DNA of 64,000 nucleotides. Source: Chloroflexota bacterium. GTDB taxonomy: Bacteria > Chloroflexota > Anaerolineae > Anaerolineales > UBA4823. The notes beneath the pieces are model-generated. The model saw only the letters and a program-made list of their open reading frames with translations, ran no database searches and was not told the origin of the DNA. Positions 6,981 through 29,995 of this stretch are shown piece after piece. The translations under genes were made by a program, and so were the position numbers. The DNA is taken from positions 62,001 to 126,000 of the forward strand of contig JAJUJL010000002.1 of NCBI GenBank assembly GCA_029265355.1, written 5' to 3'. Position 1 is the stretch's first letter, and each line of letters starts with the position of its first letter.

Positions 6981-9900
6981 CTATGGAAACCGGCTTAGGA
7001 CAATCGCTGGGGTAGGCAAGGAGGCTTTTTCACCGAGCTGAAACTCTGCCGGTGCTTTGCCAGTCTTTTCAGGGGCGCTCTGGTAGATATACAACTGTGT
7101 GCCTTCTTCTGCATTTTTGAAATCGACAAACGCCTGGCCAGTCAGCAGACCATCACTGTCCACTGCGCAGCTCGTGACCCAACCGATGACTTTACCGCGC
7201 TTATCGAGTACCGGATCGCCGTTGTGCGCCATGCGCACGCCTTTTTCAGGGAAGCGGAAGCGCACCACCACACCCTTGCGCTGCTGCTCGCGCTGTATAA
7301 AGGCTTCTCGCCCAATGAACCAGGGCTTGTAGGTTTTGACATAGGTGCCAAAACCGCCTTCTGCAACGCCGAGATCGGCATGGCCGCGCTGGCCTGAGCC
7401 AGCGCCCATCTCGTGGCCATAGAGCGGCAGCCCGGCTTCGGTGCGCAGCGAATCGCGCGCCCCCAGGCCAATGGGTTTCAATCCCGCCATGCCACCAACC
7501 TGGAGCAGCGTCTCGAATAGCTCCGCAGCCCGGTCGGGATGCACAAACAATTCGAAGGCCATCTTCTCGCCCGTGTAGCCCGTGCGGGAAACCACCAGGT
7601 CGAATCCACCGACGACCGCATCACACAATTGGGTGCGCTTGAGCGCCATGATGCGCTTGCGCGTCGCAGCGTCGCAACCCAATGCCAGCAGTATTTCGCG
7701 AGATTTTGGCCCTTGCAGGGCGATATCGACGCGCATGTCGGGGCCTTCCTTGGGATCGCGCAGGTTGCGCAGCACGACACCGCTGCCATAGGCGCGCGAG
7801 CAGGGACGGCGATTGTCGATCAGCACGCGGCCTTCCTTGACAGCATTGAGCCAGGCCCAGTCTTTATCATCGTTGGAAGCGTTGACCACCACCAGGAATT
7901 TTTCAGGGCCGCGCCGGTATACCAGGGTATCATCGATGACTTCCGCTTCTGGAGTGAGGAAGTGCGTGTAGCAAGATTCTCCGACGCCCAATCCACCGAT
8001 ATCGTTGCCGCATACGCTGTCCAGGAAAGCAGCCGCCTGTGGCCCTTCAGCCTGGTAGACGCCCATGTGCGCCACATCGAATAATCCCGCTGCCTGGCGC
8101 GTCGCCAGGTGTTCCTCCATCACACCGCTGTACCAGACTGGCATTTCCCAGCCCGCGAAGGGGATCAATTTTGCGCCCAGCTTTTTGTGCACCTCGTAGA
8201 CCGGTGTACGGCGCAGGGCTGCTTCTTTCTCTTGCCACTCAAAGCGGGGCAACGGTTCACCGGCGCCGGTTGGCATGCCAACATAGTAAGGCTTGACTGC
8301 TGCCGGTTTACCCACGACAGGCGCATCCTTGCAAGTCTTCTGGACAGGCTCCGCCTGAGAAGCCTTGACAACCACGGGCCCGGGCAACTTACGCTGGGCG
8401 TCGTCATCGAAGGCGACGTAGCCATCGGAAAGGTCGCGCAGCCATGCGGCTGCCAGCGAGGCCTGGAAGGCAGGTACGCTCAAGCGGTAGTGCTCCGCAG
8501 ACAAGAAGGTGATTGCGCCCTCCACGGTGCCTTTTGGCGTGTGCAGGCAGGTGGGTACGCTTTCTCCGGATTGCAGCGCAGAGAGATCGGCGCTGAGCGC
8601 GTAATCCAGGAATTGGCTGACACGATCCCCCATAAGATCGAATACCGACCAGCCAGCTTGCTGCTCGGGCTGGTCGTCCAGGTAATAGAAGTGTGGGTAA
8701 CCGTGCCGGGCGGGTTCGTAATCGATGCCAGCCTGGGCTGCCATATCCCGTATCTTGAGCTTGGCTTGTTCTAGCGCCTCAAAATCGACCCGCGCCCGAC
8801 GCAGTTCGCCGCGCCGCCCCTCCAGGCTGACCGGCGTGCAGGCTTGCAGCACATCGGCGATCACATCCGCCAGGGCGATCATTTCCGGCTCTTTGAAGCC
8901 TCGCTGTGTGACCCACGGCGTGCCCATGCGAATACCAGAGGGGTCCAGGGCGGATGTGTCGCCTGGAATGGTATTGCGATTGACCACTACACCGGCGATA
9001 TCCAGGATGCGAGCCGCTTGGTCGCCAGAGAGCGTGGCGCCGTCTGGTCCTTTGATGGTGCTGGTGTCAAGGTTCATCAGATGAGTGTTTGTGCCGCCGT
9101 AAGGTATGCGGAAGCCGCGTTCCTGGAAGCGCTGGGTGAAGGCGGCGCAGTTCTTGACGATTTGGGATTGGAGCTGGCGGAACTGCTCGGTGCGGGCGAG
9201 CTTAAAGGCGACTGCGATGCCGGCAAAGGTGCTGACATGCGGGCCGCCTTGCTCCCCCGGGAACACTGCCCGGTCGATCTTGCGCGCCAGGGCGGGGTCG
9301 GTGGTCAAAATGCAGGCGCCGCGTGGACCGCACAGCGATTTATGTGTGGTGAAGGTGATCACATGCGCATAACCGACAGGGGATGGGTACACGCCCGCGG
9401 CAACCAGGCCGGCGACATGGGCAATGTCGGCGAAGAGATAAGCGCCAACAGCATCTGCGATCTGTCGGAAGCGCGCCCAATCGACTGCCCACGGATAGGA
9501 AGAATAGCCGGCGATGATGAACTTGGGATTGTGCTGCCGGGCGAGCGCTTCCACCGCGTTGTAATCGATTTGCTCGGTGACGGGATCGACGGTGTAATGG
9601 ACAGCGTTGAAGTATTTTCCTGAGCGGTTCACCGACGATCCATGTGTCAAATGTCCGCCGTGCAGCAGGTTCATTCCCATGATCGTGTCGCCAGGATTGA
9701 CCAGCGCCTGGTAGACGGCGTTGTTGGCGGGTGCGCCGGAGAGCGCCTGCACGTTGACGAAGATCTGGTCTGCGCTGACGCCATTGGCAGCCATCGCTTC
9801 AGCGCAGCGGCGACGCGCCAGGGCTTCCACTGCATCGGCGTATTCCACACCTTTATAGTAGCGGGGGTCGGAGTAGCGCCGGAAGTGCGCCAGGCGCCGG

Positions 9901-10133
9901 TCATAGTCCAGGATTTCTTCCTGGGTCATCAGGCGGGTTTCTTCGTCTGGATATCCTTCGGCGTAAATATTTTGGAAAGTGGAGCTGAGCGTTTCGCGCA
10001 CTGCCTGAGGTGCGGCGCTCTCGCTGGGAATCAAGATCAATTTTCGAGCCTGGCGTTCCGCTTCGATTTGGGTGAGCTGGAAAACATCTGCGTCTAGATC
10101 GGCTAATGAGCCGCGGAAGAGAAAATCAGACAT
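6981..10133 (-). CDS. glyA-gcvT: Fused serine hydroxymethyltransferase and glycine cleavage T-protein
   Basis: 1050 residues from ATG 10133, preceded by AGGAG at good spacing; a TTG 15 bases further upstream is less likely. Residues 1-430 are a full SHMT: LILIPSESA, QALSGAPANNAV, and the PLP lysine K265 in TFTTHKSLCGPRG. Residues 636-1040 are a full aminomethyltransferase: RTPVYEVHKKLGAKLIPFAG, AGLFDVAHMG, RTGYTGE, LRTEAGLPLYGHE. Between them, residues 470-630 form an extra region whose middle (about 498-575) resembles the N-terminal part of the GcvT/YgfZ fold. SHMT interconverts serine and glycine with THF; GcvT releases ammonia and makes methylene-THF from the aminomethyl H-protein. Joining them could pass methylene-THF between sites. 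The separate gcvH-PA-PB operon has no gcvT, so this fusion is probably the only T-protein. Confidence 0.95.
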   Translation of the reverse strand: MSDFLFRGSLADLDADVFQLTQIEAERQARKLILIPSESAAPQAVRETLSSTFQNIYAEGYPDEETRLMTQEEILDYDRRLAHFRRYSDPRYYKGVEYADAVEALARRRCAEAMAANGVSADQIFVNVQALSGAPANNAVYQALVNPGDTIMGMNLLHGGHLTHGSSVNRSGKYFNAVHYTVDPVTEQIDYNAVEALARQHNPKFIIAGYSSYPWAVDWARFRQIADAVGAYLFADIAHVAGLVAAGVYPSPVGYAHVITFTTHKSLCGPRGACILTTDPALARKIDRAVFPGEQGGPHVSTFAGIAVAFKLARTEQFRQLQSQIVKNCAAFTQRFQERGFRIPYGGTNTHLMNLDTSTIKGPDGATLSGDQAARILDIAGVVVNRNTIPGDTSALDPSGIRMGTPWVTQRGFKEPEMIALADVIADVLQACTPVSLEGRRGELRRARVDFEALEQAKLKIRDMAAQAGIDYEPARHGYPHFYYLDDQPEQQAGWSVFDLMGDRVSQFLDYALSADLSALQSGESVPTCLHTPKGTVEGAITFLSAEHYRLSVPAFQASLAAAWLRDLSDGYVAFDDDAQRKLPGPVVVKASQAEPVQKTCKDAPVVGKPAAVKPYYVGMPTGAGEPLPRFEWQEKEAALRRTPVYEVHKKLGAKLIPFAGWEMPVWYSGVMEEHLATRQAAGLFDVAHMGVYQAEGPQAAAFLDSVCGNDIGGLGVGESCYTHFLTPEAEVIDDTLVYRRGPEKFLVVVNASNDDKDWAWLNAVKEGRVLIDNRRPCSRAYGSGVVLRNLRDPKEGPDMRVDIALQGPKSREILLALGCDAATRKRIMALKRTQLCDAVVGGFDLVVSRTGYTGEKMAFELFVHPDRAAELFETLLQVGGMAGLKPIGLGARDSLRTEAGLPLYGHEMGAGSGQRGHADLGVAEGGFGTYVKTYKPWFIGREAFIQREQQRKGVVVRFRFPEKGVRMAHNGDPVLDKRGKVIGWVTSCAVDSDGLLTGQAFVDFKNAEEGTQLYIYQSAPEKTGKAPAEFQLGEKASLPTPAIVLSRFP

Positions 10134-10515
10134 GGAGGTCTCCTGCAAAACATAGTGTGAGAATGATGAGTTAAGAAGGACTGCGTGTACTATATAGGAA
10201 ATCGCAGCGCTTCTTTCATCATCATTGTAGTACGGCTAAGAATATGGGTCAAGTAGGATACCGCCGGTTGGGCGTCCTGTGTACCGCGCGTGGCAACGCT
10301 TGTGGAAAATCGCGCGACTCGCTCTCCGTACACCGCATGCCCTTAACTTGAGCCCCCCTTTCTTTTTGAATAGTGCTACAATAGTAGAATAAGATCAGAA
10401 TTTAATGATTTTAATATTAGGACATACGCGGTTGACGGGGAATTGGGAATGTTTTGGCAGGCAAGGCCCACCAAAACACTCTCGAACCCAACTGAAGTGT
10501 ATAACGCCTAAATAG
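10134..10515. other. Non-coding region between divergent glyA-gcvT and a histidine kinase gene
   Basis: No credible gene is seen in these 382 bases. On the plus strand an extended -10, TGCTACAAT at 10374-10382, may serve the kinase gene; no convincing -35 accompanies it. In the predicted leader a small hairpin, GTTTTGG (10451-10457) with CCAAAAC (10471-10477), resembles two other hairpins in the window at 40271-40304 and 51194-51255. On the minus strand the glyA-gcvT promoter was not identified with confidence. Confidence 0.4.
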
Positions 10516-16041: not shown

Positions 16042-16111
16042 ACTGTATCGAACGCATCGTTGTGTCAGGGTTAGAAGAATGGGATGTAAAAGTATGCGAA
16101 GGAGAGAAAAT

Positions 16112-17275
16112 ATGGAAAGTGAGACAATTTCTGGAAGATCGCGCATCTGGTTGATGGTTGCCATGATGCTTGGGGCGAGTCTGGCCTTATCGGCTTGTGT
16201 ATCGATGGCGGGAGCCGGCGTGGCTCCGGTAATCGCACCTGTTGCGGATTGCCCGACCGTCGAAGCCCCTCGGGTGGTCAGCTTTAATGAGCAATGGGCG
16301 TCTTCCCCCCATGCTGATGAAGATGCAGAAGCATTCCGGCACTGGGACGCTGAAACTCCTCAGGAGATACCGGTGGATTGCGCTCGCTGCCATAGTCGGA
16401 CTGGCTTCCTGGATTACCTGGGGGTCGATGGCACAGCGGTGGGTGTGGTGGATAGCCCAGCGAAAATTGGCACGACCATCACCTGCTATGTTTGCCACAA
16501 CGAAGCGACGTATACGCTGGATAGCGCTGTTTTCCCTTCAGGAAAGCGCATCGGTGGGCTTGGTCCGGAAGCTCGCTGCATCACCTGCCACATGGGACGC
16601 GCCTCGACGATGACGCTCAACATCCGCATCACCGAAGCCAACCTGATCGGCGATGACACCCCCAGTCCTGACCTGAAATTCTTGAACAGCCACTCCACTT
16701 CGGCCGCGACTTCATTTGGCTCCGAAGTGCAGGGGGCGTATGAGTACAATGGGAAATCCTATCGTGGCCGGTATACACGCGGGGATGATTTCTTTGCCTG
16801 CACACGCTGTCACGATCAGCACACGCTGGAAATCAAAATTGACACCTGTGTTGAGTGTCACACCTTCACCGGAGAAGATGTCAAAGCCATCCGCGTGTAT
16901 ACCAATGACATCGATGGCGACGGCGATACCACCGAAGGGATTGCCTTTGAGATCAATCAACTGCAAGCCGATCTCCTGGAGGCGATCCAGGTGTACGCTC
17001 GTGATCGGATGGGGGTACCCATTGCGTATGATCTGGCTCACCATCCCTATTTCTACATAGACACCAATCAAAACGGGTCGGTGGATGCGGAAGAAGTCTC
17101 TAAGGAGAATGTCTACAATAGCTGGTCGCCTCGACTGTTGCGGGCGGCGTACAACTACAATTATGTTGCACATGACGCAGGCGCTTATGCGCATAACAGC
17201 ACCTATATCATCCAGGTCTTATTCGATAGCCTGGTAGACCTTGGTGGAGATGTGGCTGGCAAGACGAGACCCTAG
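16112..17275 (+). CDS. Five-heme c-type cytochrome lipoprotein
   Basis: 387 residues. The frame is open far upstream inside the preceding kinase gene, but ATG 16112 has AAGGAGAG at 16099-16106 and gives a proper lipoprotein signal ending ASLALSAC. Five heme motifs follow: CARCH, CYVCH, CITCH, CTRCH, CVECH. Near the middle and end are two calcium-loop-like sequences, DIDGDGDTTEG and DTNQNGSVDAEE, the second close to an EF-hand or dockerin loop. The protein should be anchored outside the membrane and carry electrons. It sits 70 bases after the hybrid kinase and ahead of a heme-containing sensor, which hints that the signalling genes around it respond to extracytoplasmic redox state. Confidence 0.88.
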   Translation: MESETISGRSRIWLMVAMMLGASLALSACVSMAGAGVAPVIAPVADCPTVEAPRVVSFNEQWASSPHADEDAEAFRHWDAETPQEIPVDCARCHSRTGFLDYLGVDGTAVGVVDSPAKIGTTITCYVCHNEATYTLDSAVFPSGKRIGGLGPEARCITCHMGRASTMTLNIRITEANLIGDDTPSPDLKFLNSHSTSAATSFGSEVQGAYEYNGKSYRGRYTRGDDFFACTRCHDQHTLEIKIDTCVECHTFTGEDVKAIRVYTNDIDGDGDTTEGIAFEINQLQADLLEAIQVYARDRMGVPIAYDLAHHPYFYIDTNQNGSVDAEEVSKENVYNSWSPRLLRAAYNYNYVAHDAGAYAHNSTYIIQVLFDSLVDLGGDVAGKTRP

Positions 17276-17307: not shown

Positions 17308-17410
17308 ATGTCATGCTGAACGGAGCGAAGCAACCAGATTCTTAGGCTTTGGCGATTTTCTTGGGCGCCAGGCCGCGGGTTGGTCAGCGAAGGGCTCCCT
17401 CGGAATGACC
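17308..17410. repeat. Intergenic dispersed-repeat-like element
   Basis: The stretch begins TGTCATGCTGAACGGAGCG and ends, read from the other strand, GTCATTCCGAGGGAGCCC. Both ends start with GTCAT and face each other as imperfect inverted ends. Sequences of this style (GTCATGCTGAACGGAGCGAAGC) recur between genes in many bacterial genomes, including Chloroflexota; recognition here is from memory, not from a search. It occupies nearly all of the gap between the five-heme lipoprotein gene and the diheme sensor gene. Confidence 0.6.
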
Positions 17411-17430
17411 CATCAAAAAGGATGTGTGGC

Positions 17431-18915
17431 ATGAGATGGTGGCAGAAACTGGGACTCAACTTCAAGGCAGCATTCGGTATCTCGGCGACAATGGTCATCG
17501 CACTGGGAATCGTATTTATCACCCTTTCTCAGTACTTTCGATCGTTGTTGTGGCAAAGCGAGATCCAAAAGACCGAGAATATCAACTCGATTGCAGAAAG
17601 CCTGCTGATCGAAGCCATGATGGCCGGGCGCAAGGATCAGATCCAGGAAACACTGCAGCAGTTGGGTCAAAGCGTGAGTAACCAGCAGCTTTACAGCATC
17701 GCGGTCTACGACGATGATTATCGGCTGACTTCGTTTGCCAGCGGTTTTCCTGGCACTCCATCGGTGCAGAAGAGCAGCATGCCAACCAGCGTCGAAGACC
17801 CATCCTGCTGGGGGTGCCACCAATTGCCCCCTGAAGAACGACCGTCCCATCTGGTCGTCACTGTGGAGGGGCGGCAAGTGATTCGCAACTCCATCCCCCT
17901 GTATAACGAAGAGCGCTGCCAATCCTGCCATGGCACGGAAAAACAGATCCTGGGCGACATCATGGTGGATTTCAGCCAGGAACAGTTTCAGCAGGGTTAT
18001 TCGATGCTCCTGGTCAGGTTAGGTGGTGGTTTTGCAGCGGCGATCTTGTTGGTAGCGGTTGTGCTTTACCAGGTACTCCGACAAATTGTGTTGAAACCCA
18101 TTGAGAAGGTGGTTGAGGTAGCAGATGCGGTATCCCACGGCGATTTGAACCGCGAAATTGTGGGTATGGGGGGAGACGAGATTGGCGCTCTGGCAAGGGC
18201 TTTCAACAGTATGATCTCCCAATTGCGCGAGCTCATTGGCACACTTGAAAGTCGGGTGGCAGAACGCACCAAAGCGCTGCAAACCAGCGTAGAGGTCAGC
18301 CGGCGACTATCGACGATGATCGAGCAAGATCAACTTGTGCGAGAGGTGGTAGAGCAAATCCAAGCAGCATTCGGATTTTACCACGCCCATATCTACCTGT
18401 TTGACGATCATCGAGAGCATCTGGTCTTAGTGGGCGGCACCGGGGAGGCTGGGCGACTGATGCTCGAGCGCGGCCACCGTGTCCAGAGAGGGAGAGGCCT
18501 GGTGGGACGCGCTGCGGACACCAATATGCCCGTGGTGGTAGCAGATGTCTCTTTAGATGCAAACTGGCTGCCCAACCCATTGTTGCCAGAGACACGCTCT
18601 GAAGCAGCGGTCCCCGTGGCGTTGGGCGAAGAGGTACTGGGCGTGTTGGATGTACAGCACAACGTGGTTAATGCCTTCCAGCCCACAGAAATTAAGCTCC
18701 TCGAGTCCCTGGCTAACCAAGTCGCCATTGCCATCCAGAATGCCCGGGCTTACGAAGCCTCCCGGCGTAAAGCGCAGCGCGAAGCGATGGTGGCCTCCAT
18801 TGGTCAGCAAATATTTGCGACTACCTCGGTAGAGGATGCTTTGAAGGTTGCGGTACGCGAGCTGGGTCGAGCAACTGGCGCTCCAGAGACCGTTGTTCGG
18901 ATCAATGTGGAGTGA
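17431..18915 (+). CDS. Membrane sensor with periplasmic diheme domain, HAMP and GAF, no kinase domain
   Basis: 494 residues from ATG 17431; AAAAAGG lies 9 bases upstream, while the nearer ATG 17422 would abut it. Membrane segments at about residues 11-33 and 192-213 enclose an extracytoplasmic domain carrying two c-type heme motifs, CWGCH (126-130) and CQSCH (163-167). A HAMP linker (about 210-270), a coiled segment and a GAF domain (about 305-460) follow. The protein then ends with a short tail, SVEDALKVAVRELGRATGA, also found at the ends of the next two sensors. There is no HisKA, ATPase, cyclase or chemotaxis signalling domain. It is probably a redox or gas sensor that acts through the kinase encoded third downstream. 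Confidence 0.9.
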   Translation: MRWWQKLGLNFKAAFGISATMVIALGIVFITLSQYFRSLLWQSEIQKTENINSIAESLLIEAMMAGRKDQIQETLQQLGQSVSNQQLYSIAVYDDDYRLTSFASGFPGTPSVQKSSMPTSVEDPSCWGCHQLPPEERPSHLVVTVEGRQVIRNSIPLYNEERCQSCHGTEKQILGDIMVDFSQEQFQQGYSMLLVRLGGGFAAAILLVAVVLYQVLRQIVLKPIEKVVEVADAVSHGDLNREIVGMGGDEIGALARAFNSMISQLRELIGTLESRVAERTKALQTSVEVSRRLSTMIEQDQLVREVVEQIQAAFGFYHAHIYLFDDHREHLVLVGGTGEAGRLMLERGHRVQRGRGLVGRAADTNMPVVVADVSLDANWLPNPLLPETRSEAAVPVALGEEVLGVLDVQHNVVNAFQPTEIKLLESLANQVAIAIQNARAYEASRRKAQREAMVASIGQQIFATTSVEDALKVAVRELGRATGAPETVVRINVE

Positions 18916-18958
18916 GAATTACTGGTACATGGCGATCAATGACACAGGAGTGTGAAAG

Positions 18959-21040
18959 ATGAAAAAAAACAAGCAGATGTCCCGCACCCCAATCCTCAGT
19001 ATCCGCACCCGCTTGTTGGTATTGCTGGTGGGCATCACTGCCGTCGCCATCATTTCATTGGCGGCGGTGGCGTTAGTGATCACTCAAAAAGCGAGCCAGG
19101 ATGCTACCCGGATCAGCAGGGATGCCCTGCTTCAACAAGCAGAAGACTACCTGACCCAAACGAACAATCAGAGCATAAGCGAGATTGACCTGATCCTCGA
19201 GAATGTGACTCAACAAGCCAGGAATTTGGCTGAATACATGGGCCAGTTGTATGATCATCAGGGGGCCTTCAACAACCAGGTGTATTGGTCGGCGGATCAG
19301 AAGATGGTGCGGCTTCCGGATGGTCAATACGCCAACCATCCGGAAGAGATCTCCAGTGTATTCGTACCGAATTTCCAGGAATTGAACGCTGAAGTCAAGC
19401 AAGATGCCGAGTTATCGGCTTTCTTAGATTTGACCTTCGAGAACAGTTTCAAAAGCGCACCCAATATCGCGGCGATTTATTACGCCTCGCCAAGGAATGT
19501 CGTTCGATATTATCCTAATATCGACCTTGGCTCGGCTTTACCGGCGGATTTTAAGGCAACCGAGCGCATCTGGTTCACGGGAAGCACCCCTGAAAAGAAT
19601 CCCGAACGCGCGCCCTGGTGGACTCCGACCTATACCGATGCAACCGGAAGAGGGTTGGTCACCACTGTGGCTGTGCCAGTCTACACCAGTGCGAATGAGT
19701 TCCTGGGTGTGGTTGGCTTTGATTATGAATTGGCTGGACTCAAAGATATCATCGAGAGATCAAATTTCTTGAAAGTAGGCTATGGATTTCTACTGGATGA
19801 ACAAGGGCAAGCGATTGCTCTGCCAGAGCAGGGTTATCTGGATTTCTTCGGAAAACCGGGCGCCGAATTTGAGGCTGTTCCAGATATGAAGCAATCTCAG
19901 GCGGCGTTTTCCGATCTGGTCGCCAGCATGCTATCAGGTTCAAGCGGGGTGATGGCGGTGAATATACCAGGCAGTAACCTGTTCGTTGCTTATGCGCCTT
20001 TAGGAACTACGGGCTGGAGCATGGGCAGCGTCGTGCGCGAAGAAGAGATTCTTCAGAGTATCACCAGCCTGGAGATTGAGCTTGCCAGGACCTATGAAAA
20101 TGTTGTGTTGAGCCGCGCCTTGCCTGCCGTGCTCTTGATCCTGGTCACCGGTATCCTGCTGGGCATGTATTTGATCAACCGAACCGTCAAACCCCTGCAG
20201 AAGTTGGCAGAGCAGGCAATACAGGTGGGAAATGGGGTGTGGGAAGTTGAGCTGCCAGTGGGGCGCAGGGATGAAATTGGTTACCTGGCGCAATCGCTCC
20301 AAACGATGGTCAATCAACTGCGCGGTTCAATGCAACAATTGGAACAAAAAGTTGATGAGCGCACGCGTTCGCTCCAGGCGAACATCGAGGTCAGCCGACG
20401 CATCTCAACGGTCCTGAACAAGAAAGAGCTTGTGAGGGAAGTGGTTGAGCTACTGAAAGCGACCTTTGGTTATTATCACGCCCACATCTACCTGTATGAT
20501 GAGTCTCAGGAATACTTGATCATGGCTGGAGGCACGGGTGAGGCGGGTCTCAAGTTGCTGGAGAGCGGCCATAAAATTACCCGAGGCAAGGGATTGGTCG
20601 GTAAGGCAGCCGAAGCTAAATCTGCAGTTCTCGTGGGAGACGTAGCCAAAGATCCTGACTGGCTGCCCAATCCATTGCTGCCGGAAACACGCAGCGAGCT
20701 GGCTGTTCCCATTCTCCTGGGCGATCAAGTGCTGGGCGTGTTGGATGTGCAGCACGACTCTGCTGGGGGGTTGTCGGAAAACGATGCCAGCTTGCTGCAA
20801 TCGATCGCCAACCAGGTAGCAATCGCCTTGCAGAATGCCCGTTCGTATGAGCGCATCGAGCGACAGGCGCAGCGCCAGGAACAGGCAGCGGTGATTTTCC
20901 GCAAGATCCAAAGCGGTGCGTCAATCGAAGCTGTATTAAGCACCGCGGTGCGCGAGCTGGGGCAGGCGCTTGGCGCCCGGCAAACCCGGGTTGAAGTAGG
21001 CTTGGCAAGCCAGCAATCCAGTGGGATCAACCAGGGCTAA
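18959..21040 (+). CDS. Membrane sensor with Cache-type ligand domain, HAMP and GAF, no kinase domain
   Basis: 693 residues; ATG 18959 is preceded by AGGAGTG. A first membrane segment (about 17-40) and a second (about 380-400) flank a large extracytoplasmic domain of double-Cache type, with WWTPTYTDATGRGLVTTVAV and FLGVVGFDYELAGLKDII. HAMP (about 400-460), a coiled segment with VDERTRSLQANIEVSRRIS, and a GAF domain (about 490-640) follow. It ends in the same tail as its neighbours, SIEAVLSTAVRELGQALGA. The GAF region is closely similar to that of the diheme sensor (DWLPNPLLPETRSE in both), so the cytoplasmic halves are paralogous and only the sensing heads differ. dCache domains usually bind amino acids or other small organic ligands; the ligand here is unknown. 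Confidence 0.9.
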   Translation: MKKNKQMSRTPILSIRTRLLVLLVGITAVAIISLAAVALVITQKASQDATRISRDALLQQAEDYLTQTNNQSISEIDLILENVTQQARNLAEYMGQLYDHQGAFNNQVYWSADQKMVRLPDGQYANHPEEISSVFVPNFQELNAEVKQDAELSAFLDLTFENSFKSAPNIAAIYYASPRNVVRYYPNIDLGSALPADFKATERIWFTGSTPEKNPERAPWWTPTYTDATGRGLVTTVAVPVYTSANEFLGVVGFDYELAGLKDIIERSNFLKVGYGFLLDEQGQAIALPEQGYLDFFGKPGAEFEAVPDMKQSQAAFSDLVASMLSGSSGVMAVNIPGSNLFVAYAPLGTTGWSMGSVVREEEILQSITSLEIELARTYENVVLSRALPAVLLILVTGILLGMYLINRTVKPLQKLAEQAIQVGNGVWEVELPVGRRDEIGYLAQSLQTMVNQLRGSMQQLEQKVDERTRSLQANIEVSRRISTVLNKKELVREVVELLKATFGYYHAHIYLYDESQEYLIMAGGTGEAGLKLLESGHKITRGKGLVGKAAEAKSAVLVGDVAKDPDWLPNPLLPETRSELAVPILLGDQVLGVLDVQHDSAGGLSENDASLLQSIANQVAIALQNARSYERIERQAQRQEQAAVIFRKIQSGASIEAVLSTAVRELGQALGARQTRVEVGLASQQSSGINQG

Positions 21041-21064
21041 CAGGCTGCCTTTGGAGGTGATGCG

Positions 21065-24000
21065 ATGAAAATTACTCGGAAAGCCCTTATCCCGATTGTT
21101 TTTGCGATTTTGCTGGTAGGCATAGTGCGTGCATTGTTTGATTATTCCACCAGCAACAGGCAGGCAGAGCAGCAAGAAACCGAACAACTAGCCCTCTTAT
21201 CTCAGGTATTCACCGGTCGGCTGGACTCCTTGGAAGAATTTGCAGTTGGAATGGCAATGGAGTGGGCTAACACCCCAGAGGTTCAAGCAGCTTTTGCCGC
21301 CTACGACCGCGAGCGGCTGATCGAGCTGACTTTGCCGGCTTACCTAAAAGTTAATGAGGCTTTTGATGTGCCTCAGGCTCAGTTTCACCTGCCTCCGGCA
21401 ACCTCTTTTTTGCGCCTTCATCAGTTGGACAAATTTGACGACGATCTTTCATCGTTCCGGTTCACGGTGATCGACGCCAACATCCACAAGCAGCCTGTAG
21501 GCGGAACAGAGATCGGTCGCGGAGGATTGGGCATGCGCGGAGTTGTGCCCGTGGAGTATCAGGGCAGGCATATTGGTACAGTCGAGGTCGGCTTGAATAT
21601 TGACCAGACCTTGATCGATTCCTTAAAGCAGCAGTTCAAAGCAGATTGGCAGATATTGCTCAGCCGGGGCCCGGCGGAGATTGCCACATTCGAGGGTTCG
21701 ACGTCCGAGATTCAAGGGCCGAATGCTGACCTGCTCTTGCAAGCCAGCACCCTGGCTGAGCCTTTCTTCGCCACACCGGAAGCGTATCAAAAAGCGCTGA
21801 GTGGTGAACCGCAAGTAACGCGAATGCAATCTGCTGGGATATCCTATGCGGTTTACTCTACTCCTCTGGTAGATTTCCGCGGGCAAACGATCGGCGTGCT
21901 GGATATTATCTATGATCGCACCGCGCTGGTGCAGCAGCAAAATAGACGCAATATGATGTCGATAGGCTCCATCTTGATGTCAGTTCTGTTCACTGCATCT
22001 ACAGTCGGTTGGGTGCTTACCCGCTCCCTGAGACCGATTGGCAGCCTGACAGAGGCGGCTCAAGCGATCTCATCCGGCGACTTGGGCCGTACGGTAATCG
22101 TGAAAGGCAAGGATGAGCTGGCGATCCTGGCAAGCGCGTTCAACAGCATGACTACCCAGTTGCGCAATCTGATAGGCTCGCTGGAACAGAAAGTAAGCGA
22201 GAGGATGCGGGATGTGCAGCTGGCAGCCGAAGTTAGCCAGAGCATCTCTCAGGTGAAAGACCTGGACGTGCTGTTGTCAGAAGCGGTTGAGATGATCCGC
22301 TCGCACTTCAATCTCTACTATGTCCAGGTGTACCTGGTGGATATAGTTGGGCGAAGCCTGGTTCTGCGAGCAGGCACAGGGTCAGTCGGCCAAGAGCTGC
22401 TGAGTCGGGGCCACCGCCTCGCCCTGGATGCGACTTCGATCAACGGCAAGGCAGGCATGGAAAAGCGACCAGTGCTGGTTACGGATACCGCCAGCAGCGG
22501 TGTACACCGGCCTAACCCACTGCTGCCTGATACGCGCTCCGAGGTGGCGGTGCCGCTGGTTGTCGGTGAGAAAGTGTTGGGTGTGCTCGACCTTCAAGCA
22601 GACCAGCCAGGTACCTTCCAGGCAGAAAACCTGTTTGCCTTCCAGGCGCTGGCGAACCAGCTAGCTGTCGCTCTCCAAAATGCCACCCTGTTCGAGCAAG
22701 CTGAACAGGCGCGCTTCGAAGTAGAGGCCCAAATGAAATGGCAGACGCGCAAAGGATGGCAGGAATTCCTCGATGCAGTGCAGCGTAGCGAGCGCATTGG
22801 ATTTGCCTTCAATATGGCTGGCGTCACACCATTGGAAGAGCCACTCTCAGAACCCGCTTCTGCGCAGGAACTTGAAGTGCCCATTACCATTGCTGGGGAG
22901 CCGGTGGGTCGCTTCCGCATCGAGCCAGAGAGAGCCCTGGATGCGGCAGATGCAGAATTCGTCAGCCAGGTCGCCCGCCAGGTTGGCGAGCAGATTCAGA
23001 ACTTGCGCCTGCTGGCCCAAGCGGAGCAGTACCGCCAGGAAGCTGAACAGGTGGTTCAGCGCCTGACCCGCGAAGGCTGGGAGTCCTACCAGCACTCGCA
23101 GGATGAAGAGCGCCTTGGTTATGTCTATGACCGACAGATGGTTTCTCCGCTAGTATCTGAGCTCAATGACTACCCTGAGCGCGCCAGCCTGTTGCCGTTG
23201 CAGGTGCGCGGTGAGCAGATTGGCGAACTGGGCGTGGTGAGTGAGAATGGCCTGGATGAGGAAAGTCAGGAGCTGATGCAAGCAGTGGCGCGGCAGCTCA
23301 GCACTCACCTTGAGAACCTGCGCCTGTTGGAAGAAACCCGCCGCACCGAAGCTGAACTAGCAACCCGCGCCGCTGAAATGATGAAGGTTGCGGAGTTAGC
23401 CACCCAGGTGACGACCCAGACCGAGGTGGATGAGCTGCTGCAAAGCCTGGTCGACCAGGTCAAGGAAAGTTTCGGTCTCTATCACGCCCATATCTACCTG
23501 ATGGATGGAACAGGTGAACGCTTGAACCTGGCAGCAGGCGCTGGCGAGGTGGGGCGCAAGATGGTGATGGCTGGCTGGCAGATCTCCGCAACCTCCGAAA
23601 AATCGCTTGTGGCTCGCGCTGCTCGCACTCGCCAGGCAGTGATAGTGAACGATGTACGCGCTGATCCCGAGTTCCTGCCCAACGAGCTGCTGCCGGAGAC
23701 GCGTTCCGAAATGGCGGTGCCGCTGGTGGTCGGCAACCGCGTGGTGGGGGTGCTGGATGTTCAGTCTGACCAGGTGGAGCACTTCACCGCCGAGGATGCC
23801 AGTATCCAGACCACGCTGGCCTCTCAGGTGGCGGTCGCCTTGCAGAACGCCCAGCAGTACCGCGAGACCCAGGCAGCCCTGGAAAAGTCAGAAACTTTGT
23901 ACGCAATTACCCGCACCGCCACTCGTTCGCTCGAACTGAATGAAATTCTGAGCGAGATGCTCACGCAGGTGCTGCGAGCCACACATCTGGATATGGGCTT

Positions 24001-24604
24001 GATCAGCATGGTGGATCCTGACACTGGCGACCTGGCGCTGGCAGTACACCACGCCATGCCAGAACCGCTGGTCAGGAAGCTCTCCATTCAGGGTTTGAAG
24101 GGCACGCTGTGCGCCATGGTTTACAACGAGCAGAGAGCTATCAGCATCAACGACCTGGAGAAAGACTCGCCCATCGATGCCAGCGGCCTGGTTGGGCTGG
24201 GCATCCACGCTTACCAGGGTGTGCCGCTGGAGGCGCGCGGCAAGGTGCTCGGCACGCTTTGCGCGTTCAGCAAAGAGTCTCAAACCGACTTGAGCCAGTC
24301 GCTCGAATTGATGCAGATCGTTGGACAGCAGGTGGGTATCGCAATCGAGAATGCTCAGCTCTTCCAACGCACCCAGCAGCAGGCGGAGCGCGAAGCGTCC
24401 ATCAACATGATCAGCCAGCGCATCCAGGCGACGACCAGCGTGGAGGAAGCCTTGCAGGTGGCGGTGCGGGAACTGGGTCGGACGCTGGGCGCTCAGCGGA
24501 CGACCATTCAACTGGGTGTGCCAAAGCGCGAGCCCCAGGCAGCAGCGGTGGGAACCGGGAATGGTTCCAACGGCAACAATGGGAAGAGCAAGACCAGCCA
24601 GTAG
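21065..24604 (+). CDS. Large membrane sensor: extracytoplasmic domain, HAMP, repeated GAF and GAF-like modules, no kinase
   Basis: 1179 residues; ATG 21065 follows GGAGGTGA. Membrane segments at about 7-24 and 295-320 enclose a sensory domain with FHLPPATSFLRLHQLDKFDD and GVVPVEYQGRHIGTVEVGL, as in some Cache-type chemoreceptor heads. After HAMP (about 320-375) come a GAF domain (about 395-545), two degenerate GAF-like modules introduced by GW..F/Y (about 560-665 and 675-765, each ending IQNLRLL or LENLRLL), a GAF domain with LPNELLPETRSEMAVPLVVG (about 790-940), a further GAF (about 945-1110), and the tail SVEEALQVAVRELGRTLGA shared with the two upstream sensors. The extreme end is Gly/Asn/Lys-rich. 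It likely acts as a scaffold and signal integrator for the following kinase. Confidence 0.88.
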   Translation: MKITRKALIPIVFAILLVGIVRALFDYSTSNRQAEQQETEQLALLSQVFTGRLDSLEEFAVGMAMEWANTPEVQAAFAAYDRERLIELTLPAYLKVNEAFDVPQAQFHLPPATSFLRLHQLDKFDDDLSSFRFTVIDANIHKQPVGGTEIGRGGLGMRGVVPVEYQGRHIGTVEVGLNIDQTLIDSLKQQFKADWQILLSRGPAEIATFEGSTSEIQGPNADLLLQASTLAEPFFATPEAYQKALSGEPQVTRMQSAGISYAVYSTPLVDFRGQTIGVLDIIYDRTALVQQQNRRNMMSIGSILMSVLFTASTVGWVLTRSLRPIGSLTEAAQAISSGDLGRTVIVKGKDELAILASAFNSMTTQLRNLIGSLEQKVSERMRDVQLAAEVSQSISQVKDLDVLLSEAVEMIRSHFNLYYVQVYLVDIVGRSLVLRAGTGSVGQELLSRGHRLALDATSINGKAGMEKRPVLVTDTASSGVHRPNPLLPDTRSEVAVPLVVGEKVLGVLDLQADQPGTFQAENLFAFQALANQLAVALQNATLFEQAEQARFEVEAQMKWQTRKGWQEFLDAVQRSERIGFAFNMAGVTPLEEPLSEPASAQELEVPITIAGEPVGRFRIEPERALDAADAEFVSQVARQVGEQIQNLRLLAQAEQYRQEAEQVVQRLTREGWESYQHSQDEERLGYVYDRQMVSPLVSELNDYPERASLLPLQVRGEQIGELGVVSENGLDEESQELMQAVARQLSTHLENLRLLEETRRTEAELATRAAEMMKVAELATQVTTQTEVDELLQSLVDQVKESFGLYHAHIYLMDGTGERLNLAAGAGEVGRKMVMAGWQISATSEKSLVARAARTRQAVIVNDVRADPEFLPNELLPETRSEMAVPLVVGNRVVGVLDVQSDQVEHFTAEDASIQTTLASQVAVALQNAQQYRETQAALEKSETLYAITRTATRSLELNEILSEMLTQVLRATHLDMGLISMVDPDTGDLALAVHHAMPEPLVRKLSIQGLKGTLCAMVYNEQRAISINDLEKDSPIDASGLVGLGIHAYQGVPLEARGKVLGTLCAFSKESQTDLSQSLELMQIVGQQVGIAIENAQLFQRTQQQAEREASINMISQRIQATTSVEEALQVAVRELGRTLGAQRTTIQLGVPKREPQAAAVGTGNGSNGNNGKSKTSQ

Positions 24605-24636: not shown

Positions 24637-26775
24637 ATGGCAAAACGCAAAGACATACAAGTGCGGATTGATGAGCTGTTTGGCCGGTTGGGGATTGAGG
24701 CGAATGAGGGCGGTGTGCCTTCCAAGGAACTAGCCCCTGTACGGCGCATTTCCTCGCCGTATTCGCCATCTGCCCCTGGAAACGGGAAAAAAGCGGAGAA
24801 GCCATCCAACGGCAACGGCAGGAAAGCAGGGGAGATTGACAATCCGGGCTCTGGCATAGGCTTAGCAATGCCAACCTCGGACTCCAAGGACCACTCGCTT
24901 CAGGCAGAGCCAGCCCGCCCAAGTGCTGTAGATTCCCTTGGATGGGAAGATTACCTGGATGCAATCGAGCGCAGCGACCAGATTTGCATCAGTTATGAAG
25001 ATCATCGAACTTCAACCAGCGAGAAAGAGCAGGCGGCCAAGCTATTCGAATTGCCTCTGGAAATTGGCAGCGAGCGCCTGGGCGCCTTGCAGTTGGAGAT
25101 TGGGGAGCATCAATCGCTCTCCCCTGAAGAAACCGCTATGCTGTCTGCGGTTTCTCAGCAGGTGTTGCAGCACATCGAGAACCTGCGACTATTGGAACAA
25201 GCTGAAAAATATCGCCGTGAAGCAGAAGAAGCCTCCCGTCGGTTGACACACGCGGCGTGGGACGAATACCTGCGCTCGCCTGCCGCGCCAATCCACGCCT
25301 ATCAATATGGCGATCACCGGGTCGAGGCAGTCGAGCCAGAAAGCATCGCGCTGGCCGAGGCAGGCACCCTGGTGTGCGAGCTGAAAGTGCGAGAGGAAAC
25401 CATTGGCAAACTGGCAGTTATCCAACCGCAGAGTAATCCTGAGGCCTCAGCGGCGTTCCTGGCAGAGATCGCCAGCCGCCTGTCCACTCACATCGAGAAC
25501 CTGCGATTGCTGGATGAAACCGAACGCAGCCGCCAGCAGTTGGATAAACGCGCCACTGAACTGGAAACTGTTGCCAAAGTCAGCACCACAGCCGCCTCCA
25601 CCTTGGATCCGGATGTGCTGCTGCAATCGGTGGTCAACTTGACCAGTCACAGCTTTCACCTGTACCATGCGCAGGTATTTATTTTCGATGAGGCGACAAA
25701 TTTGTTGGAGCTCAAAGCAGCCTCGGGCAAAATTGGCGATAGCAGTGCGTTGGAAAAGCAAGTGATATCGCTGGATAATCTGCGCTCTCCTGTCGGGAGA
25801 GCCGCCAATAGTCGCCAGGGTGTGATCGTTAGCGATGTTGTTGCAGACAATGATGATTGGGAAGTGCCCTCGCTTCCGGGTGTTCGATCAGAGATGGCGA
25901 TACCCATGCTGCTCGGTGAGCGCCTGGTGGGTGTATTCCATGTGCTCAGCGATTCGCCTGGGCGCTTTAGCAGCGAAGACTTGCTGACATATTCTACCCT
26001 GGCCGCTCAGGTAGCGGTTGCCTTGCGCAACGCAGAGTTGTATGCCGAGCAGTTGGTCACCGTGGAGCGCTTGCGCGAGCTGGATCATCTAAAATCGTCG
26101 TTTCTTGCGAACATGAGCCACGAGTTGCGCACGCCTTTGAATTCCATCCTGGGCTTCACCCAGGTAATCCAGGAGGGACTGGACGGACCTGTTACCGAGG
26201 ACATGTCCAGCGATTTACAGCTTATCGAGAAGAATGGGCGACACTTGCTCAACCTGATCAACGATGTGTTGGATATGGCAAAGATCGAGGCTGGACGAGT
26301 CAACCTGTCACTGGAGACAGTGGACCTGGCAGAGCTGCTGCAGGATGTATTGCAGACGACCGCGGCGTTGGCGCGTGATCGCAAGCTCTTCTTGCGCCTG
26401 GAGCAGCACACGGAAGTGGCGGTGCAATTGGAGCTGGATCGTACTCGCATCCGCCAGGTGCTGATTAACCTGGTGGGCAATGCCATCAAGTTTACCGAGT
26501 CGGGAGGGATCACTGTGCATCTCTTCCAGGACGAAGAGCGCGTGCGCATCGAAATTCACGATACCGGCATAGGCATCCCGCCAGAAAAGCTGGAAACGAT
26601 CTTCGAGGCTTTCAGCCAGGTTGACACTTCTACGACCCGCAAGGTGGGTGGCACTGGCCTGGGCTTACCCATCAGCCGCAAGTTGGTGGAACTGCACAAT
26701 GGGCGATTATGGGCGGAAAGCAGCGGCGTGTATGGAGAGGGCTCGATCTTCTATCTGGAATTTCCCCGAGGATGA
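24637..26775 (+). CDS. Soluble histidine kinase serving the sensor operon
   Basis: 712 residues from ATG 24637 with CGGGAG upstream; the frame stays open for 500 bases further up inside the previous gene, which is coincidental. A low-complexity N-terminus (about 20-95) precedes two degenerate GAF-like modules, each starting W.DYL or WDEYL and ending IENLRLLE or IENLRLLD, like those in the large sensor. A GAF domain (about 310-465) follows, then HisKA with H495 in NMSHELRTPLNSILGF and an ATPase domain (NLVGNAIKFTESGG, DTGIGIPPEKLETIFEAF, TGLGLPISRKLVE). It is the only kinase in this transcription unit. Likely phosphate acceptors are the two receiver domains encoded immediately downstream. Confidence 0.92.
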   Translation: MAKRKDIQVRIDELFGRLGIEANEGGVPSKELAPVRRISSPYSPSAPGNGKKAEKPSNGNGRKAGEIDNPGSGIGLAMPTSDSKDHSLQAEPARPSAVDSLGWEDYLDAIERSDQICISYEDHRTSTSEKEQAAKLFELPLEIGSERLGALQLEIGEHQSLSPEETAMLSAVSQQVLQHIENLRLLEQAEKYRREAEEASRRLTHAAWDEYLRSPAAPIHAYQYGDHRVEAVEPESIALAEAGTLVCELKVREETIGKLAVIQPQSNPEASAAFLAEIASRLSTHIENLRLLDETERSRQQLDKRATELETVAKVSTTAASTLDPDVLLQSVVNLTSHSFHLYHAQVFIFDEATNLLELKAASGKIGDSSALEKQVISLDNLRSPVGRAANSRQGVIVSDVVADNDDWEVPSLPGVRSEMAIPMLLGERLVGVFHVLSDSPGRFSSEDLLTYSTLAAQVAVALRNAELYAEQLVTVERLRELDHLKSSFLANMSHELRTPLNSILGFTQVIQEGLDGPVTEDMSSDLQLIEKNGRHLLNLINDVLDMAKIEAGRVNLSLETVDLAELLQDVLQTTAALARDRKLFLRLEQHTEVAVQLELDRTRIRQVLINLVGNAIKFTESGGITVHLFQDEERVRIEIHDTGIGIPPEKLETIFEAFSQVDTSTTRKVGGTGLGLPISRKLVELHNGRLWAESSGVYGEGSIFYLEFPRG

Positions 26776-26781
26776 TGACCG

Positions 26782-28449
26782 ATGGCGAAACCTATATCAT
26801 TGTACTGTGTTCATTGTGGAAATATCCAGCCATACCAACCTTTAGCGCCCACGCTTTGCGAGCGCTGCCAGTCCACCTGGTTGGAGGCGCGCTACGATTA
26901 CCCAAATTTCAAGCGCCTATTGCTGCAAGGATTGCCAGGCAGGTCTTTCGACCTGTGGCGCTACCACGAAGTATTACCGGTTGAGAAAGCTGGGTGCAGC
27001 GAGAATTCGAGATTAATTTGTGCAGGTGGAACGCCGCTGCGCCAGGCTTATCGTTACGGTGATTATTTGCGCCATTCCAAAATATTCATCAAAGATGAGC
27101 GCTATGGGCCGACCAACTCATTCAAAGATCGCCAGGCGGCAGTCGCAGTAGCTGCCATGGCGGATGCTGGTATCCAGGAAGCGGTGATCGCCTCCACCGG
27201 CAATGCCGCGGTCGCCTACGCTTCAGCATGCGCCCGCTCGGGCATTAAGCTGTGGGCGTTCATGACCAGTATGGTGCCGGCAGAGAAGCTGCGCGAGGTG
27301 GCTCTGTTCGGGGCGGAAGTGATCAAGGTCAGCGGTACGTATGACGATACGAAGAAGATCGCCGCCCAGTTCGCACAGCGGCGCGGCTTGTTGTACGATC
27401 GCGGCGCTTCCAGCTTGCCGGCGCGCGAGTCGATGAAGACCATCGCCTATGAAATCGTCGAACAATTGGGCTGGCGCGCCCCGGATTGGTACGTGCAGGC
27501 AGTCAGCGGCGGTCTTGGCCCGCTGGGTGTGTACCATGGCTTCCAGGAGCTGTATGAGATGGGTTTGATCGAGCGCATACCTGCCCTGGCGGTTATCCAG
27601 GCCGAGGGGTGCGCCCCAATGGTGCAAGCCTTCAAAGCTGGAAAATCGAAAGCCGACCCGGTTGTGCCCGAAACTCGCATAGCGATCCTGTCCACTGGCG
27701 ATCCAGGGAGCACGTACACCTACCTGTGGGAGCTGGTGCAGCGTCACGGTGGTACAATGGAAAGCGTCAGTGATGAACAGGCCTTTCATGCCATGCGTAC
27801 ACTAGCCAAATCGGATGGCATGGCGGTCGAACCAGCCACGGCTGTGGCATTTGCTGGCCTGGAGAAATTGATCCGCCATGGACAGGTGAAGGATGACGAG
27901 CTGGTGGTCGTGAACTGCACAGGGCACACATTCCCGGTGGAGAAGCATATCCTGGGTGATCGCTGGGAAGTCGATTTGCCGCTGGCACGCAGCCATGCCA
28001 ACGATGCGGTGCATGAAGGCTTGCAGGCTGCCCTGGAGCGGCTGGACGAGCGCACGACAACTATCTTGCTCATCGACGACAATCCCGATGATGCCCGCCT
28101 GGTGGGCAAATTTCTACAAGCCCGTAAACCGTACCGCATCTTCCACGCGGCAGATGGATGGGACGGCTTATCCCAGGCGCGCCAGCGATTGCCCGACCTG
28201 ATTGTTACCGACTTAATGATGCCGGAAATGGATGGGATCAGCCTGTTAGAAGAGCTGAAGTTGGACGCCCGCACTCGCAACATCCCGGTCATCGTGGTCA
28301 GCGCCAAGGACCTGGATGAGCTGGACAAGTCTCGCCTGAATGGAAAGACCGAAGCAATTTATCAAAAAGGGTCGCTGCCCCCGCGCGAATTTGCCAATCA
28401 GGTGGTAGAGGTGATCGAACAGCGCGCCAGCGCACGCAAGGAGAGCTAG
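26782..28449 (+). CDS. Threonine synthase-like PLP enzyme fused to a C-terminal receiver domain
   Basis: 555 residues. Residues 9-29 hold a zinc-ribbon-like C-X2-C / C-X2-C (C9, C12, C26, C29). Residues about 75-400 are a fold-type II PLP enzyme of the threonine synthase family, with the Schiff-base lysine K115 in PTNSFKDRQAAV and the phosphate-binding region in AVSGGLGPLGVYHG. Residues 426-555 are a complete receiver: acidic pair D432/D433, phospho-acceptor D477 in LIVTDLMMPEMDG, S507 at the switch position and K529. Threonine synthase converts O-phosphohomoserine to threonine and phosphate. A receiver on this enzyme implies control by phosphorylation. The gene starts 6 bases after the kinase stop. 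Activity on another beta- or gamma-elimination substrate cannot be excluded. Confidence 0.92.
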   Translation: MAKPISLYCVHCGNIQPYQPLAPTLCERCQSTWLEARYDYPNFKRLLLQGLPGRSFDLWRYHEVLPVEKAGCSENSRLICAGGTPLRQAYRYGDYLRHSKIFIKDERYGPTNSFKDRQAAVAVAAMADAGIQEAVIASTGNAAVAYASACARSGIKLWAFMTSMVPAEKLREVALFGAEVIKVSGTYDDTKKIAAQFAQRRGLLYDRGASSLPARESMKTIAYEIVEQLGWRAPDWYVQAVSGGLGPLGVYHGFQELYEMGLIERIPALAVIQAEGCAPMVQAFKAGKSKADPVVPETRIAILSTGDPGSTYTYLWELVQRHGGTMESVSDEQAFHAMRTLAKSDGMAVEPATAVAFAGLEKLIRHGQVKDDELVVVNCTGHTFPVEKHILGDRWEVDLPLARSHANDAVHEGLQAALERLDERTTTILLIDDNPDDARLVGKFLQARKPYRIFHAADGWDGLSQARQRLPDLIVTDLMMPEMDGISLLEELKLDARTRNIPVIVVSAKDLDELDKSRLNGKTEAIYQKGSLPPREFANQVVEVIEQRASARKES

Positions 28450-28833
28450 ATGGCTTTTAAGATATTGTATATTGAGGATAATCCCGATAATATGCGGCTG
28501 GTGCAGCGCGCGTTAGAGTCGCGTGGCTACCAGTTCTTCCCGGCGGAGAATGGAATGTTGGGATTGGAGAGGGCAGCCTCCATTTACCCAGATTTGATCT
28601 TGCTGGACATCAATCTTCCGGATATCGATGGCTATGAAGTGGCGCGCCGGTTGCGGGGAAGCGGCAACAGCAGGCTGGTATACACACCGATCATTGCGAT
28701 CACGGCAAACGCATTGAAAGGCGATGCTGAGAAAGCCCTGGCGGCTGGCTGCGATGTTTACATGTCTAAACCGATCAATATCCGTGAGCTTTGGGCGCGC
28801 GTCGAAGCTTTCTTGCCAATGAACAATGATTGA
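28450..28833 (+). CDS. Single-domain response regulator (receiver only, DivK/CheY-like)
   Basis: 127 residues made of one receiver domain: acidic pair in YIEDNPDN, phospho-acceptor D53 in LILLDINLPDIDG, switch threonine in IIAITANA and conserved lysine in VYMSKPINI. The ALKGDAEKALAAGCDVYMSKP end is typical of DivK-like receivers. There is no output domain, so it must act by binding another protein or by passing phosphate on. The start codon directly follows the stop of the threonine synthase-receiver gene, and the end overlaps the second threonine synthase gene by 8 bases, so its expression is tied to both enzymes. Confidence 0.93.
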   Translation: MAFKILYIEDNPDNMRLVQRALESRGYQFFPAENGMLGLERAASIYPDLILLDINLPDIDGYEVARRLRGSGNSRLVYTPIIAITANALKGDAEKALAAGCDVYMSKPINIRELWARVEAFLPMNND

Positions 28834-29995
28834 AATTCATTCCTATATCAAGCACTTAACTTGCTCGGATTGTGGTCGCATTTTTAATGTCGATCAAATC
28901 CAGACCTATTGTCCAGACTGCCAGGCGGCGCTGGTGGCAATCTATGATTTAGATGCCGCGCGCCGGCACGTGGATCGGGATCGGATCAGCCGCCGACCGA
29001 AAGGGATGTGGCGGTGGGGAGAGCTGCTGCCGGTGCGCAGCGCAGAGAATGTGATCACGCTGGGGGAGGGAGATGCGCCGCTCTTGCGTGTAGACCATCT
29101 CGGCTCACAACTGGGGCTAAAACAGCTTTTCGTCAAAGACGAAAGCGTCAACCCGACCGGCTCGTTCAAGGCGCGCGGTCTGTCGGCGGCTGTTTCCAAG
29201 GCCAAAGAGTTGGGTGTCGATAAAGTGATCATCCCGACTGCCGGCAACGCCGGCAGCGCCATGGCGGCCTATGCGGCGCGTGCCGGGCTGCGCTCACACA
29301 TTTTCATGCCCAAAGACACGCCCTTTGCCAACATGCGCGAGTGCCAGATTGCCGGTTCCGCCGTTGACCTGATCGATGGCTTGATCTCCGAGGCGGCAGG
29401 CATGGCGGGGGTAAAAGCGCGCGCGGAGGGTTGGTTTGATGTCTCGACCTTCAAAGAGCCCTACCGCATGGAAGGCAAGAAGGTGATGGGGTATGAGCTG
29501 GCAGAAGCTTTCGACTGGGAGCTTCCGGAAGTGATCATCTATCCGACTGGCGGCGGCACCGGGTTGGTGGGCATGTGGAAGGCATTCAACGAACTGGAAC
29601 AACTGGGGTGGTTGAAGAACGGCGCCCGGCCGCGCATGGTCTCGGTGCAGGCCTCTGGCTGCGCACCGGTGGTCAAAGCTTTCGAATCGGGAGCCAGTTA
29701 CTGCGACTTCTGGGTTGGGGCGGAAACGGTGGCCTCCGGCTTGCGTGTGCCGAAGAGCTTTGCCGATCGCATGATCCTGGAGTCGATTCGCGCATCCTGC
29801 GGCACAGCCGTGGCGGTGAGCGATGAAGCCATTGGCGAAGCGCAAAAGCAGCTCGGTGCGGCTGAGGGCATTTTTGCCTGCCCGGAAGGCGCTGCGACGC
29901 TGGCCGCGCTCAAAGAGCTGGTGCGCCGTGGTTGGGTGCACCCGGATGAACGGATCATTCTGTTCAATACAGGTACGGTTTTGAAATACCTGTAG
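28826..29995 (+). CDS. thrC: Threonine synthase
   Basis: 389 residues, normal length for the short bacterial threonine synthases. A zinc-ribbon-like N-terminus has C13, C16, C29 and C32. The PLP lysine is K115 in NPTGSFKARGLSAAVSKA, and the phosphate-binding glycine loop is YPTGGGTGLVGMWKAFNEL. Further family signatures are TAGNAGSAMAAYAARAG and the C-terminal CPEGAATLAAL. It makes threonine from O-phosphohomoserine. The receiver-tagged paralogue two genes upstream shares the zinc ribbon but not its glycine loop sequence, so the two proteins are not recent duplicates. It is the last gene of the sensor-kinase operon. Confidence 0.92.
   Translation: MIEIHSYIKHLTCSDCGRIFNVDQIQTYCPDCQAALVAIYDLDAARRHVDRDRISRRPKGMWRWGELLPVRSAENVITLGEGDAPLLRVDHLGSQLGLKQLFVKDESVNPTGSFKARGLSAAVSKAKELGVDKVIIPTAGNAGSAMAAYAARAGLRSHIFMPKDTPFANMRECQIAGSAVDLIDGLISEAAGMAGVKARAEGWFDVSTFKEPYRMEGKKVMGYELAEAFDWELPEVIIYPTGGGTGLVGMWKAFNELEQLGWLKNGARPRMVSVQASGCAPVVKAFESGASYCDFWVGAETVASGLRVPKSFADRMILESIRASCGTAVAVSDEAIGEAQKQLGAAEGIFACPEGAATLAALKELVRRGWVHPDERIILFNTGTVLKYL

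Follow-up and report, generated by a model that had tools for sequence, protein, structure and literature searches.

Most receiver (REC) domains act through DNA binding or through second-messenger enzymes, and the first-pass annotation of the locus considered here had it that they are rarely tied to biosynthetic enzymes. This was right only in part, as several fusions of REC to standard metabolic enzymes are on record from both bacteria and archaea, those of archaea being mostly narrow in distribution (PMC5847659). The archaeal proteins in which REC is accompanied by KaiC-like or BcsA-like domains (PMC5847659) resemble the protein described below in that a phosphorylatable receiver is covalently attached to an enzyme, whereas here the output is a PLP enzyme of amino-acid type, the receiver is C-terminal, the fusion occurs in several lineages of one phylum and its linkage to a kinase gene is fixed. 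Also pertinent are the extended (winged) AAT-fold arginine, lysine and ornithine decarboxylases, which combine an amino-acid PLP enzyme with a domain derived from REC, and in which that N-terminal domain is required for decamer formation (PMC8503589). Their PLP fold is a different one and their REC-derived domain an N-terminal oligomerizing module, whereas the receiver here is C-terminal, has all its phosphorylation residues and is encoded beside a kinase gene. On the enzyme side the closest relative is threonine synthase (ThrC; PRK08197 and TIGR00260; structures 2ZSJ, 1UIM and 2D1F), with which the fused protein shares a fold-type II PLP domain, the lysine of SFKDR and the STGN loop. In the literature searched, which left out the main censuses of response-regulator outputs, no paper described a fusion of a threonine synthase to a receiver, and an earlier mention is possible.

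The window, that is the whole stretch of 64,000 nucleotides of Chloroflexota DNA that was analyzed, contains such a fusion within a run of signaling genes, the features of which are as follows.

17380-18915, + strand: c-haem (two CxxCH) HAMP-GAF sensor protein without a kinase domain
18959-21040, + strand: Cache-HAMP-GAF sensor protein without a kinase domain (Pfam)
21065-24604, + strand: dCache-HAMP-GAF(x3) sensor protein without a kinase domain (Pfam)
24637-26775, + strand: soluble GAF histidine kinase (GAF, HisKA, HATPase_c; no REC), probable phosphodonor (Pfam, linkage)
26782-28449, + strand: ThrC-like PLP enzyme fused to a receiver domain, 555 aa (frame, Pfam)
26806-26868, + strand: zinc ribbon, Cys 9, 12, 26 and 29 (conserved in 64/64)
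27022-27924, + strand: PALP (fold-type II PLP) domain, residues 81-381, with Schiff-base K115 at 27124-27126 (Pfam, alignment, fold matches)
27934-28050, + strand: disordered tether, residues 385-423 (pLDDT under 50)
28051-28425, + strand: receiver domain, residues about 424-548, with phospho-acceptor D477 at 28210-28212 (Pfam, alignment, model)
28450-28833, + strand: stand-alone receiver, DivK/CheY-like (Pfam; in subfamily A nearly always next after the fusion gene)
28826-29995, + strand: PRK08197-type threonine synthase paralogue without a receiver, ThrC2 (564.6 bits, cut-off 303)

The fusion gene is a single intact open frame in the window's list of frames and their translations, and its product has, in order, a zinc ribbon, a threonine-synthase-like PLP domain, a disordered linker and the C-terminal receiver; Pfam matches it with PALP at residues 81-381 (232 bits) and with Response_reg at 428-512 (60 bits). 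All the residues that the first-pass annotation had singled out (C9/C12/C26/C29, K115 within NSFKDR, D432/D433, D477, S507 and K529) are where it placed them. In an AlphaFold2 model (mean pLDDT 86, pTM 0.71) the PALP and REC parts are each well predicted and the tether between them is not, its residues 385-423 being below 50; with that pTM and a disordered linker, the model gives no sign of REC packing on the enzyme. By fold and sequence together, the closest solved structures are threonine synthases.

How constrained is this arrangement? An alignment of 64 distinct fused proteins, all from Chloroflexota, has C9, C12, C26, C29, K115, D433, D477 and K529 invariant in 64/64, with D or E at 432 and S or T at 507, so that strong constraint must act on the PLP and phosphorylation sites alike. 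The fused REC thus has the full residue set of a response regulator (acidic pair, phospho-acceptor Asp, Ser/Thr and Lys), and it shares one frame with an enzyme domain whose catalytic residues are conserved. It might be supposed that the receiver is a module for oligomerization or docking with no use made of phosphorylation, in the manner of the N-terminal REC-derived domain that the winged AAT-fold decarboxylases need for forming decamers (PMC8503589). With every phosphorylation residue kept in all 64 proteins and a kinase fixed beside the gene, such a role on its own is very improbable.

The fusion is not a peculiarity of this assembly. Of 301 Chloroflexota genomes sampled, 34 have it (counted from the listed matches), and a scan of genome contigs yielded about 36 further near-complete fusions under record titles of Chloroflexi, Anaerolineae, Anaerolineales, Herpetosiphon and Thermoflexales, so that the concern that it might be found only here no longer stands, and an isolated fusion or assembly artefact is ruled out by the homologues in other genomes. 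It has been kept across several Chloroflexota lineages, Herpetosiphon among them, and the source genome carries it twice, with the copy on another contig belonging to what is here termed subfamily B and the one in the window to subfamily A. No fused protein was found in the viral contigs, plasmids or phages searched, and a mobile or viral origin was rejected on that account. Among 146 genomes of the cyanobacterial phylum (that of G303) there were no fusions, and four had a close stand-alone homologue. Two further sets, neither with a positive control, gave no match at E<=1e-75: 297 genomes from the phylum to which G304 belongs (L061, an Acidobacteriota record) and 398 from that of G302 (L057, a Muproteobacteria record). 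One metagenome assembly titled Pleurocapsa minor (G313; L075, L166 and L183) has two fusion copies, and 24 of 25 sampled relatives match too; because a named cyanobacterium's phylum has the fusion in none of its 146 genomes, the title is probably a misnomer. In some members from other lineages (L050, L113 and L183, the last at L183:6576-8642) the PLP domain is followed by two receivers, PALP-REC-REC.

Is the PLP domain a threonine synthase? It qualifies as a fold-type II PLP enzyme (PF00291, with the Schiff-base K115 in 64/64), and its zinc ribbon is as in the PRK08197-type paralogue, whereas it scores under the NCBIfam cut-offs of both threonine synthase models (247.7 bits against PRK08197, cut-off 303; 155.5 against TIGR00260, cut-off 167.1), carries its receiver at the C-terminus and has a clade and a signature of its own. 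In a tree the fused proteins formed a group separate from every other sampled ThrC-like enzyme (SH-aLRT 100); when stand-alone relatives from the cyanobacterial phylum were added, the support was 100 for the combined group and 48 for the fused group alone. The clade signature comprises invariant DER at 105-107, FKDRQA at 114-119, SGGxGP at 242-247, TGxPG at 305-309 and GHT at 381-383, most of which is also in the stand-alone relatives. The NSxNPxRxEGQK motif of the solved threonine synthases, which we take to be what binds the substrate phosphate, is absent throughout the clade, only its E, its K and the T that follows being kept. We infer from these comparisons that the substrate would be changed or relaxed, and since this is a ThrC-like paralogue with a distinct pocket, it is probably not simply O-phosphohomoserine for the housekeeping supply of threonine. 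Cysteate synthase (TIGR03844; 9K3C), a weakly similar ThrC-like PLP enzyme whose model family is without a receiver, was considered as an identity and rejected (125.4 bits, cut-off 324.9).

A housekeeping threonine synthase that has acquired a tail was likewise rejected, and the first-pass proposal of control over threonine synthesis finds no support in the form given, in view of scores under both cut-offs, the separate clade and the other ThrC genes in the genome; its fallback, a related PLP reaction, fits better. There is still the case for a true threonine synthase, taking O-phosphohomoserine to threonine under control by phosphorylation, which can draw on threonine synthases being the nearest solved structures, on two fused members that just exceed the TIGR00260 cut-off of 167.1 (L018 at 184.5 bits and L034 at 170.6), on the ThrC-type gene within the same cluster and on the transporter gene considered below, as threonine and homoserine are exported from Escherichia coli by RhtA, a member of the DMT family, and export of that kind would suit a linkage to EamA. 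That reading is an unlikely one, with the window's protein under both cut-offs, the phosphate motif missing from the clade and another threonine synthase elsewhere in the source genome that clears the TIGR00260 cut-off at 291.5 bits (L014).

The kinase frame ends at 26775, six bases ahead of the ATG of the fusion gene, just as first described, and this juxtaposition turns out to be general. Upstream sequence was long enough to judge at 62 fused loci, and 59 of these have a same-strand histidine kinase gene ahead of the fusion gene, directly adjacent in 58 and in L022 separated by one receiver gene, in contrast to none of 37 control loci for other PALP proteins from nine genomes (flanks of about 1.4 kb). 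The remaining loci are L121 and L122, from one genus, which have no neighboring kinase, and L049, with a receiver-kinase gene downstream only. The gene before the fusion in L121 and L122 (G208 and G276) resembles, by eye, that for methylthioribose-1-phosphate isomerase (MtnA). The linked kinase has both HisKA and HATPase_c, its tie to the fused receiver being one of genomic linkage, and from that linkage the gene directly upstream very probably encodes the cognate kinase, though the true partner of the kinase could be the free receiver or, in subfamily B, the kinase's own REC domains.

Two layouts recur. In subfamily A the order is kinase, enzyme-receiver, free receiver and often ThrC2; in the window the last two genes overlap by 8 bases, and the order with ThrC2 is repeated in at least seven subfamily A loci and in L113/L182. 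In subfamily B a two-receiver kinase precedes the enzyme-receiver, there is no free receiver, and a gene for an EamA transporter follows directly at 38 of 47 loci, the source genome's second copy among them (in L034 and L049 it is one gene further downstream). Many B loci also have genes for Cache-GAF sensors and a ParA-type ATPase upstream, and a ParA/MinD-type ATPase gene directly before the hybrid kinase gene, as at L031:4346-5134, is seen in many of them.

Many related loci have Cache-GAF proteins like those of the window ahead of the kinase. In the window itself the three HAMP-GAF sensors stand in a row upstream of the kinase (17380-24604, + strand), two of them with Cache and none with a kinase or output domain. 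Directly before the c-haem sensor at 17380 is a gene for a multihaem c-type cytochrome (about 16085-17275, + strand; a Cytochrome_C7 match and several CxxCH), possibly a redox input to the signaling cluster. Also near the cluster, a 1055-aa frame at 6981-10148 on the - strand encodes an SHMT domain and, after it, a GcvT aminomethyltransferase domain, so that two one-carbon enzymes of glycine/serine metabolism are joined in one protein.

Such surroundings allow the roles to be turned about, with the PLP domain as a sensor or regulator whose ligand is an amino acid or phospho-amino acid and which modulates the flow of phosphate among kinase, fused receiver and free receiver, the last being the real output. 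The setting within sensory operons with GAF and Cache sensors, the free receiver that follows the fusion gene in subfamily A and the absence of the substrate-phosphate motif of solved threonine synthases all agree with this. A mere sensor, however, would not need the PLP lysine and the surrounding catalytic motifs that are invariant; subfamily B has a transporter in place of the free receiver; and in Cyanobacteriota the stand-alone sister proteins have the same active-site signature with kinase genes absent from their loci, suggesting that the PLP part works as an enzyme alone. Sensing as the primary role is accordingly viewed as unlikely.

The best reading of the comparisons is a two-component system that would have a PLP enzyme as its output, acting on an amino-acid-like substrate, the enzymatic activity being presumed from the conserved residues. 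The upstream GAF histidine kinase would phosphorylate D477 of the C-terminal receiver, a transfer that linkage and residue conservation make likely. The receiver would hang on its disordered tether of some 40 residues, and a change in its dimerization or docking would alter how active the PLP enzyme is or how it assembles. Because the fusion is fixed, this is the most economical reading, and as a whole, from phosphorylation of D477 through to an altered enzyme, it is one towards which the balance tips. In the window's subfamily the partners are the free receiver and the ThrC-type enzyme. In subfamily B, because an EamA gene directly follows, the product may be an amino-acid-like compound released through the transporter, with the proviso that EamA-type proteins transport many compounds. 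As to where the receiver came from, a profile of the fused REC was matched better by the last REC than by the one before it in every one of 32 hybrid kinases with two (medians 105 and 60 bits), and it was probably from the last REC of such a neighboring kinase that the fused receiver was derived.

For annotation, the immediate lesson is a warning against labeling the fused genes as threonine synthase. The fixed order of kinase, enzyme-receiver and transporter means that both phosphotransfer and product are testable, and a named Herpetosiphon strain (DSM 589) carries the fusion gene and is a possible cultivable host. In its widest and most tentative form, the proposal is that a PLP-enzyme clade not described before, whose members in some Cyanobacteriota stand alone, has come in Chloroflexota to serve as a direct catalytic output of two-component signaling, the kinase toggling post-translationally the synthesis, and with EamA possibly the release, of an amino-acid-like compound which may itself be an extracellular signal. 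If the simpler reading holds, a kinase-linked PLP-REC fusion spread across a phylum would represent direct control by a signal over a metabolic reaction, and what has been found suggests that Chloroflexota switch a reaction of amino-acid type in this direct way rather than through gene expression.
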